The notes below the pieces were generated by a model. The model searched no databases. It saw only the letters and a list, made by a program, of their open reading frames with translations, and was not told the DNA's origin. A DNA stretch of 64,000 bases, taken from Niallia sp. FSL W8-0635. GTDB taxonomy: Bacteria > Bacillota > Bacilli > Bacillales > Cytobacillaceae. This document shows, in pieces, positions 8,469-11,350 of the stretch; position 1 is the stretch's first letter, and the number at the start of each line of letters is the position of its first letter. The stretch lies in the NCBI RefSeq assembly GCF_038007965.1, contig NZ_JBBOYD010000001.1, forward strand, positions 1,776,501 through 1,840,500, written 5' to 3'. A program made the translations under genes and the position numbers.

Positions 8469-9950
8469 ATGCAATTAAAAAAACTTATTGAGAGTTTGCA
8501 GCCATATGCTCCTTATAATGGAGAAGATGTGGAAATAAAATCAATAGAGAATGATAATCGCAAAGTAACACCTGGCAGTCTATTTATTTGTATAAAAGGA
8601 TACACAGTCGATGGACATAATTATGCGCAAAAAGCATACGAGTCTGGCGCAGTAGCTGTGATTGCTGAAAGAAATTTAGCCTTGCCAATTCCCGTTATTG
8701 TTGTAAAAGACACGAAGAAAGCTAGTAGTGTGCTTGCAGATGTATTTTATCAAAAGCCAACACAAAAGCTTCAACTTATTGGGATAACAGGAACAAATGG
8801 AAAAACGACAACAAGTCATTTAATAGATGCTATTTTAAAAGAGGCGCATAAAAAAACGGGAATCATCGGAACGATGTATACGAAAATCGGTGAGGAAATT
8901 CAAGAAACGAAAAATACTACTCCAGAAGCGGTGACACTTCAGAAGGTGTTCCATCAAATGGTCGAACAACAAGTCGAAACAGCTGTTATGGAAGTATCTT
9001 CCCATGCCCTTGTGGAAGGCAGAGTATTTGGCTGTGATTATGATATAGCTGTATTTACGAATCTAAGTCAGGATCATTTAGATTATCATGGCACGATGGA
9101 AGAATATAAGAAAGCAAAAGGACTGTTATTTACAAGATTAGGGAATGCATTTCAAGAGGAAAAACCGAAGTTTGCCATCCTAAATAAAGATGATGCAGCT
9201 GCTAACGAGTACGAAAGCCTTACAGCCGCTCATATTCTTACATATGGAATTGATACAGAGGCAGATATTATGGCCAAAAATATAAAAATAACGGCAGCCG
9301 GTACATCTTTTGATTTACATACTCCACTTGGGGCACAATTTGTACAACTAAAAATGGTAGGGAAATTCAATGTGTATAATTCCTTAGCAAGTATTGGTGC
9401 TGCGATTGCGAGCAATATCCCAATGGAGGTAACGATTCGTGCCCTCGAAAAGGTAGAAGGTGTAGCAGGTAGATTTGAAACAGTAAATGCTGGGCAAGAT
9501 TTTTCTGTGATTGTTGATTATTCCCATACACCTGATAGTTTACAAAATGCCCTGCAGACGGTGAAAGAATTTGCTGAGAAAAACGTATATGTCATTGCAG
9601 GCTGTGGAGGAGATAGAGACAAGACAAAACGCCCGTTAATGGCAAAAATTGCTTGTCAGGAAGCGAGCTATGCTATCCTTACTTCCGATAATCCAAGAAG
9701 TGAAGATCCGGATGCCATTTTAAAAGATATGGAAGCTGGGGTTATGGATGAACAGAATTATATAATTATCCCTGATCGAAAAGAAGCAATTACATATGCG
9801 GTCAATCAAGCACAGCCTGGCGATGTTATCTTAATTGCAGGAAAAGGACATGAAACATATCAAATTATTGGTTCTGAAGTGTTAGATTTTGATGACCGTT
9901 TAGTTGCAAAAGAAGCGATAGAGGAGAGAAAAAATGACACTGTCCTATAA
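8469..9950 (+). CDS. murE: UDP-MurNAc-L-Ala-D-Glu:meso-diaminopimelate ligase MurE
   Basis: MurE adds the third residue of the peptidoglycan stem peptide in the cytoplasm, using ATP. The 493 residues show the three Mur-ligase domains: an N-terminal UDP-binding domain ([16 protein letters not shown]), the ATP site G108-T-N-G-K-T with SHALVEGR, and a C-terminal domain. The D407-N-P-R motif (DNPRSEDP) is the signature of meso-DAP specificity, so the wall is A1-gamma mDAP type as in Bacillus. It overlaps the next gene by 17 nt. Confidence 0.97.
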
Positions 9951-10374
9951 TTTAGTCCTTCAGGCAATATCCGAAGCAAAAGGGTTTGTAAAAGAAGATT
10001 TGCTTTTTCAAACCGTGTCATTCCTAGCAGATTCTAAGCAGCCAAAAGGGCTTTTTATCCCATTATATGAAGAGAATTCTGGTGATTTGAGTACTGCTAT
10101 AGCAAACGGAGCAATAGGAGCGATTTGGGAAGAAGGGGTCGTACTCCCTTCTTATACGCCTAATCATTTTCCTATATTTTATACAAAAGATTTAAAGGAA
10201 GGCTTATTAAAAATGATCGAAATTTATGAGAAACAACTACAGGCACAAGAAAGTAAAACAAAATTCATTTTTTTGAAAGAAAAAAGTCTGAATTCCATTG
10301 AGGAATCATATGATATACCGGTAATCAGAGAGCATGTATTAAAGACGAACAGTCAAGCGAAAGGAGGGAACTAA
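9934..10374 (+). CDS. Stand-alone MurF-type N-terminal domain protein (no ATPase or ligase domain)
   Basis: This 146-residue protein resembles only domain 1 (UDP-substrate binding) of MurF: residues about 25-95 ([44 protein letters not shown]) follow the MurF pattern LFIPLKGE...A..GA.A..W....P...IL.DD.L.AL. The GxTGSNGKTTTK ATP loop and everything after it are missing; instead there is a 45-residue tail of unknown type. The start overlaps the murE 3' end (SD GAGGAGAG), and mraY begins 2 nt after the stop, so it is embedded in the operon and probably translated. The position murE-X-mraY is where murF stands in many other phyla. It cannot be an active ligase; the full murF must be elsewhere. 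It may be a remnant or an accessory binding protein. Confidence 0.75.
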
Positions 10375-10375
10375 A

Positions 10376-11350
10376 ATGCAGGAGAAAGTAATCTTTTTTA
10401 CCATTCTTTTAGGGTTTTTAATAACTGTATTAATATCTCCCTTTTTTATTCCCTTCTTGCGTAGATTGAAATTTGGTCAAAGCATTAGGGAAGAAGGGCC
10501 GAAATCCCACCAGAAAAAAACAGGAACGCCAACAATGGGTGGCTTAATGATTATTTTTTCCATTGTTGTTACAACTTTGGTTATGATTAATAAATTTTCA
10601 GAGCCAACGATTAAGACCTATTTATTGCTTTTAGTATTAGTTGGTTTTGGATTACTAGGCTTTTTAGATGATTTTATAAAAGTAGTAATGAAGCGTAATC
10701 TAGGATTAACTTCTAGACAAAAGCTTTTAGGGCAGATTATTATCTCGCTTATATTCTATTTTGTTTTACGTGAAAATGAATTTTCAACCGCTATTTCTAT
10801 TCCTTTTGTGGATAAACCATTAGAATTAGGATGGTTTTATGCGTTATTTATTATTTTTTGGCTAGTTGGATTTTCTAACGCGGTGAATCTAACAGATGGC
10901 TTGGACGGTTTAGTTTCGGGAACTTCTGCTGTTGCCTTTGGCGCATTTGCTGTTCTTGCTTGGAGTCAGTCACAATTTGAAATTAGCATTTTCTCTGTAG
11001 CCATTGTTGGTGCGGTATTAGGGTTCTTAGTATTTAATGCCCATCCAGCAAAAGTGTTTATGGGAGATACAGGTTCTCTTGCACTTGGAGGTGCGATAGC
11101 TGCGATTGCTATTCTAACGAAGACAGAAATTCTACTGATATTAATTGGTGGAGTATTTGTTATCGAAACACTTTCTGTTATTCTTCAAGTTATTTCCTTT
11201 AAATCAACAGGAAGAAGAATTTTCCGCATGAGTCCATTGCATCACCATTATGAATTGGTTGGATGGTCCGAATGGAGAGTAGTTGTCACGTTTTGGACGG
11301 TTGGATTATTATTTGCCGCTTTAGGAATTTATATTGAGGTGTGGTTATAA
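10376..11350 (+). CDS. mraY: Phospho-MurNAc-pentapeptide transferase MraY
   Basis: MraY is an integral membrane enzyme that transfers phospho-MurNAc-pentapeptide to undecaprenyl phosphate, making lipid I. The 324-residue protein has about ten membrane helices and the family motifs GTPTMGG, DDFIK (residues near 97), NLTDGLDGL and the C-terminal [10 protein letters not shown] histidine cluster. The SD AAAGGAGGG lies 9 nt before the ATG. It follows the MurF-like gene by 1 nt and shares an A with the murD start codon. Confidence 0.98.

Follow-up and report, generated by a model that had tools for sequence, protein, structure and literature searches.

Why should a gene of 146 codons that matches only the first domain of the ligase MurF be kept open between murE and mraY? 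The question is raised by a stretch of 64,000 nucleotides from Niallia sp. FSL W8-0635 (hereafter, the window), in which cell-wall and division genes surround this stub in the usual dcw order, as read from the open reading frames. The stub overlaps murE by 17 nt and is followed by mraY after a gap of 1 nt (Table 1). A preliminary description, made from the sequence of the window, presented it as an intact frame with an overlapping start and its own Shine-Dalgarno sequence, which the window coordinates bear out, and regarded it as a MurF domain 1 without a ligase, left at the ancestral murF position.

Table 1. Features of the murE-mraY interval in the window (positions count from the first letter of the window).
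Feature	Position	Strand	Basis
murE, 493 aa	8469..9950	+	
Shine-Dalgarno AGGAG of the stub, within murE	9922..9926	+	sequence reading
Stub gene, 146 codons, stop TAA at 10372-10374	9934..10374	+	
MurF domain-1-derived part of the stub, residues ~1-104	9934..10245	+	profile, motifs, fold
C-terminal module of the stub, residues ~108-146, TKFIF..SLN..SYDIPV..	10255..10374	+	not MurF
mraY-linked sequence element TCTGAA-N14-CATATGATA-NN-CC-N-GT	10287..10322	+	pattern match
Element core CATATGAT	10307-10314	+	
Stretch of low synonymous divergence, FPIFYTKD to mraY codon 10	10168..10405	+	family alignment mapped on the window
Shine-Dalgarno AAAGGAGGG of mraY, spelled by the last stub codons (KGGN)	10360..10368	+	sequence reading
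mraY, 324 aa	10376..11350	+	

Descent and distribution of the stub

A mis-assembly that had cut away the rest of murF can be discarded, since the closest named relatives of the stub protein in a sequence search (80-88% identity) belong to Niallia, and since stubs are present in 145 of the 193 host-family genomes, the other 48 giving no stub match (both tallied from the search tables). A sample of the order gave short-frame matches outside the host family too, with at least 50 genomes and at least 12 families represented, a tally that excludes G246, where the match ends at a contig end, and includes G413, where the C-terminal module is split off. Orthologues thus lie at the same place in related genera, as anticipated.

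The first ~105 residues of the stub match MurF domain 1, and both the profile comparison and the fold of a structure model show this similarity. A profile of the stubs met domain 1 of the dcw MurF with a probability of 99.9% (E 3.6e-33), and that of the MurF encoded next to ddl with E 4.3e-17; a P-x-x-x-P-x-x-F-P stretch is common to stub and dcw MurF and is three residues shorter in the ddl-linked protein. The stub is therefore closer to the dcw than to the ddl-linked MurF, and it occupies the same locus, where relatives keep a full-length MurF between murE and mraY.

Exactly one MurF above the curated cut-off was found in 75 of 80 genomes of the order, which were chosen by hand to span strong, weak and no stub matches, so that their proportions are not frequencies. 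According to its coordinates, this single MurF is adjacent to mraY in 28 of the genomes and lies elsewhere in 47; among the latter, 32 loci were fetched, and all 32 carry a Ddl motif in the same locus. The host genome itself has its above-cut-off match (TIGR01143) at C1:386346, with its ddl neighbour; between ddl and murF, a 155-nt unit occurs twice in tandem, the copies being 96% alike (L002, 976-1282). Among the five remaining genomes, murF of G246 is divided between the ends of two contigs, and a different MurF-like protein is encoded in G399, G442, G217 and G227.

In an unrooted tree from 111 columns, whose support values are approximate because the bootstrap had not settled, the ddl-linked MurFs form one group (support 100/99) with no stub inside, and all stub rows but two are separated from the full-length proteins by a 100/100 branch. 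The two exceptions, relics of G399 and G442, nest with full-length dcw MurFs, of which two come from their own genus; the group has a support of 87/87 and suggests that these relics were truncated separately. The G217 relic, whose branch is very long, sits among the stubs, but its placement is unreliable.

Since 75 of the 80 genomes have one MurF, linked to ddl in all 32 fetched loci where it is away from mraY, the stub is best read, on sequence comparison, as what the dcw murF left behind after a takeover by the ddl-linked MurF: catalysis moved to that single enzyme, and the dcw copy became a non-catalytic stub. The evolutionary account of the preliminary description, comprising descent, slot, loss and a full-length murF elsewhere in the genome, is thus well supported.

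A second kind of replacement was observed alongside. The four genomes G442, G399, G227 and G217, which have no MurF above the TIGR01143 cut-off, carry ddl-linked MurF-like ligases of ~530 residues (L162, 844-2442; L163; L164; and L165, respectively), whose middle and C-terminal domains are MurF-like, whereas domain 1 is replaced by a hydrophobic N-terminus that apparently spans the membrane; the Pfam and NCBIfam search covered L162. Given the lack of any above-cut-off MurF, this membrane-type ligase may be the MurF of these four genomes. At the dcw position, G399, G442 and G217 hold relics of 302-313 aa (L122, 2068-3009; L123, 2125-3066; L124, 1500-2408), made of domain 1 and a degenerate domain 2 whose P-loop is gone, without domain 3; Pfam finds Mur_ligase_M in L123 and nothing in L124. 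That a stub might supply the missing domain 1 in trans to a membrane-type MurF is rejected for the present locus, as the ddl-linked MurF of the host genome possesses a domain 1 itself. The Bacillaceae locus studied here also turns up in two records (L238, L292) under the names Pseudomonas sp. ISL-84 and Chryseobacterium sp. ISL-80, which hence look mislabelled or contaminated.

Losses and retained motifs of the domain-1 protein

The loss of the P-loop and of domains 2-3 holds: GSNGKT is absent from the stub, a loose P-loop pattern occurs in 1 of 96 family members (regular expression), and the tail is not MurF. The stub has no TIGR01143 or other NCBIfam match even at E 10, and none to PF01225, the Mur ligase N-terminal domain of the MurE/MurF type, at the Pfam gathering score, a genome scan with PF01225 giving three other places only; a PDB search with the single sequence returned two designed proteins only (E 0.45 and 0.52). 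Unlike that family domain, moreover, the stub stands alone.

Two motifs of MurF domain 1, DSR and DGH, which we take to be ligand-binding, are also gone. All 19 dcw MurFs and 34 of the 35 ddl-linked MurF rows (32 distinct sequences) have the DSR Arg, which is absent from all 80 stub rows. The DGH His is present in all 19 and all 35, respectively, but in only 2 of the 80, both from one sequence. The 80 rows represent 66 distinct sequences, including three relics with domains 1 and 2 and one bogus row of 98 aa (L135); without these four and the duplicates, the 62 stubs have the DSR Arg in none, the DGH His in 1, and the N and H of NHF in 54 and 53. The patterns D[ST]R and [DN][GA]H are absent from the 80 stub rows, and occur in 1 and 0 rows, respectively, of alignment A2 (96 of 164 sequences, picked by script at <85% identity and >=135 residues; alignment A1 holds 36 hand-picked sequences of 101). 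What domain 1 retains are the motifs GLF, AIANGA and YTPNHFP (P.YTPNHFP).

In three genera, compared over 6, 13 and 37 pairs, its dN/dS came to 0.17, 0.25 and 0.18, while murE has values of 0.03-0.11 and mraY of 0.01-0.03; the selection suspected for the stub is thus found in domain 1. Taken with the lost DSR and DGH, these sequence-based rates indicate that domain 1 is under purifying selection as a protein, weaker than in murE or mraY, but not as a MurF-like ligand binder.

The C-terminal module and the element beside mraY

The description of the stub as MurF domain 1 alone stands for these first ~105 residues; for the C-terminal third it does not, a module having been overlooked there. Profile comparison sets the last ~40 codons, which read KKLLN..ETYDIAVM in many genera, apart from MurF. 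In many host-family genomes without domain 1, a free small frame with the same motif lies directly before mraY, and in G413 stub and tail are two frames joined by ATGA. The C-terminal third is a separate part, constrained largely at the nucleotide and not the amino-acid level, and has outlived domain 1 in several genera.

Two other views of this module were considered. A remnant of MurF domain 2, suggested by the resemblance of TDIAVLEM to TYDIAVM, was not adopted, given a profile probability of 0.6% and the nucleotide-level constraint. A microprotein selected for its amino acids was discarded as the main reading, since CA-TAT-GAT is invariant even where T and S alternate; the dN/dS of the module core is also erratic (0.87, 0.16 and 0.20 in three genera).

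The family pattern of the nucleotide element is TCTKAA-N14-CATATGATA-N2-GC-N-GT, the window having CC in place of GC. In a scan of 84,980 species genomes, the exact pattern was found on 76 contigs, in all 76 just upstream of mraY, at a distance of 54-88 nt in 72 (by script), the other four being checked by eye from the flank translation. In all 72 assessable loci, the frame that crosses the element has its stop between -5 and +8 relative to the mraY start; in one of them, L295, this frame is open without a start codon. The element itself was seen to hold an ATG, mostly followed by ATA and often by a +1-frame stop within a few codons (by eye).

At the codon level, T/S-Y-D is written NCA-TAT-GAT (ACA or TCA, TAT, GAT) in 34 of 34 non-redundant loci, chosen by their amino acids from 117. 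In the same loci, the domain-1 residues T75, F79, G59 and A60 have mixed synonymous codons, and Y74, N77 and H78 mostly the AT-rich one. Over 97 pairs, synonymous divergence is 0.355 at the 3' end of murE and 0.26-0.41 in mid domain 1. Over the last third of the stub it falls to 0.06-0.17 in eight windows out of nine, the ninth having 0.26; it is 0.095 in mraY codons 1-10 and thereafter at least 0.30, except in codons 21-30 (0.14). Low values in these last codons, and also in the first codons of the stub, mean that low divergence is not confined to the element, and the codon and rate counts overstate significance, as the sequences are related to one another and the loci compared are mostly best matches rather than a random sample.

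The core CATATGAT was tabulated over 142 distinct regions upstream of mraY. It is present in 58 of 72 loci with a stub and in 27 of 44 with a short murE-mraY gap without domain 1, and all but one of these 27 have it in frame within a small ORF, 39-59 codons long; it is absent from all 22 loci with a full-length MurF or another long ORF before mraY, from the three relics with domains 1 and 2, and from one locus without murE in view. The element is not essential to all, since it is missing in 14 of the 72 stub loci and 17 of the 44 short-gap loci. In some genomes, murE nearly touches mraY (gaps of 1-25 nt).

As regards structure, alifold gave no conserved RNA structure over 42 sequences, and Rfam no family in window positions 9600-10700, its single match lying inside mraY and scoring 20.1 bits where the gathering score is 65. 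Of three sequence groups, a single one showed an alignment hairpin (z -4.4), the others having z of ~0, so that a conserved hairpin is not general; the hairpin of that one group (L004) lies over the mraY Shine-Dalgarno, from about -20 to +36 of mraY. Pairing of this Shine-Dalgarno is 0.58 versus 0.52 with shuffled flanks, and is higher in 54 of 80 loci. As judged from the alignments, the most rigid stretch of the stub gene is a nucleotide element beside mraY.

Possible roles of a retired enzyme gene

The enzyme parts have been lost, the gene survives between murE and mraY, and its tail overlaps a conserved signal; for these reasons it looks like a retired enzyme gene reused to serve its neighbour mraY. 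Open frame, position and nucleotide constraint together argue for a role in cis on mraY, as a coupled leader ORF that carries a signal. Opening inside murE and ending within a few nucleotides of the mraY start, the frame would couple translation from murE to mraY, and the conserved element in its last third may act on mraY as a transcription, RNA or translation signal. Domain 1 still yields a folded protein under purifying selection, as its dN/dS and the structure model show, probably a protein-binding adaptor for a neighbour such as MurE or MraY. Its conservation over 13 families is more than coupling needs and counts against a mere coupler; it is nevertheless evolutionarily dispensable, the leader ORF and the element often remaining after its loss. 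Also weighing against the cis reading are the loci that lack the element, the near contact of murE and mraY in some genomes, and the negative results on conserved RNA structure, Rfam families and sigma-70-type promoters. That the stub is a pseudoenzyme gene acting mainly in cis as a coupled leader of mraY, with the domain-1 protein as a probable adaptor, is a reading that we hold about as readily as we doubt it.

More tentatively, and somewhat short of an even call, the element may be a new regulatory element of Bacillaceae dedicated to mraY, of DNA or RNA and built on CATATGAT, which would control the first membrane step of wall synthesis from inside the retired MurF frame; its carrier ORF would have begun with the MurF pseudoenzyme body and later been pared to a leader of 39-59 codons in several genera.

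Could the domain-1 protein instead be the main product, a scaffold or regulator binding MurE, MraY, MurG or the ddl-linked MurF, and the element incidental? Purifying selection on domain 1 would agree with this. So would the PNHF motif, which varies less among stubs (66 of 80 rows with the N, 63 with the H) than among dcw MurFs (4 and 1 of 19), the relics without P-loop and domain 3 that persist in G399, G442 and G217 after another replacement, and the MurE-MurF complex named in the title of PDB entry 8f5d. We nevertheless find it rather doubtful: the C-terminal ORF remains in many of the loci examined from family genomes without a stub match, and the nucleotide-level constraint is left unexplained.

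Mother-cell sporulation boxes of the CATAnnnT kind invite comparison with CATATGAT, and the element might be a promoter for mraY and the genes downstream, with CATATGAT as a -10-like box that the open frame merely crosses. The distance to mraY and the conserved blocks at about -20 and 0 would suit such a promoter, as would, in the excerpted text of PMC1925097, the internal sigma-E regulation of spoVE-murG in this operon of B. subtilis. It is unlikely, however, given that the core is nearly invariant, that GC.GT is conserved downstream as well, and that the host genome holds a single mismatch-free match (four more with 2-3 mismatches; a reversed-pattern control gave one), unlike a sigma-factor box shared by many promoters. 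A simple consensus scan of window positions 9900-10500 found no promoter of the sigma-70 type, with -35/-10 hexamers at 16-18 nt spacing.

A regulator sensing UDP-MurNAc-peptides through the MurF UDP site, the version put forward in the preliminary description, could draw on the shared fold of MurF and MurE domain 1, on the uridine site that MurE domain 1 holds according to the excerpted PMC3829189, and on the one stub sequence that keeps a His in the DGH column; it is highly improbable, and the UDP-binding role is rejected, because of the loss of DSR and DGH, which nearly all the full-length MurFs compared keep. A decaying pseudogene without function, to which high divergence, a variable tail, repeated absences and a split or shortened frame in two loci (G413, G370) might point, is scarcely credible and already contradicted by the open frame and motifs in 13 families, the domain-1 dN/dS and the low synonymous divergence.

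Among known systems, the dcw MurF (UDP-N-acetylmuramoyl-tripeptide:D-Ala-D-Ala ligase, TIGR01143) shares with the stub its domain-1 fold, sequence descent, slot and, in many cases, a start overlapping murE, whereas the stub lacks the P-loop, domains 2-3, DSR and DGH and has a different C-terminal module. Translationally coupled leader ORFs are short frames ending at the Shine-Dalgarno or start of the next gene, whose frame is kept while their sequence varies. The stub is alike in both respects, but it is an old enzyme gene, and its coupling is putative. The spoVE-murG signal of B. subtilis is likewise internal to the same operon, but further downstream, as far as the excerpt of PMC1925097 goes, and it is likened here by position, not by sequence. 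A MurF-derived pseudoenzyme and a coupled leader ORF are thus known kinds; new are their combination, the element linked to mraY, and the survival of this element after loss of the enzyme domain. Titles and abstract openings of the open-licence literature, covered in part through best matches only, mention neither a stand-alone MurF domain 1 nor an mraY leader.

The locus shows a possible fate of an operon slot after its essential enzyme has been replaced, in which catalysis is lost while a domain-1 body and a link to mraY are kept, and the relics of G399, G442 and G217, beside a second kind of replacement, show a parallel course. MraY is an antibiotic target. If the element is regulatory, it would give access to the way in which these bacteria balance MraY with MurE and MurF.
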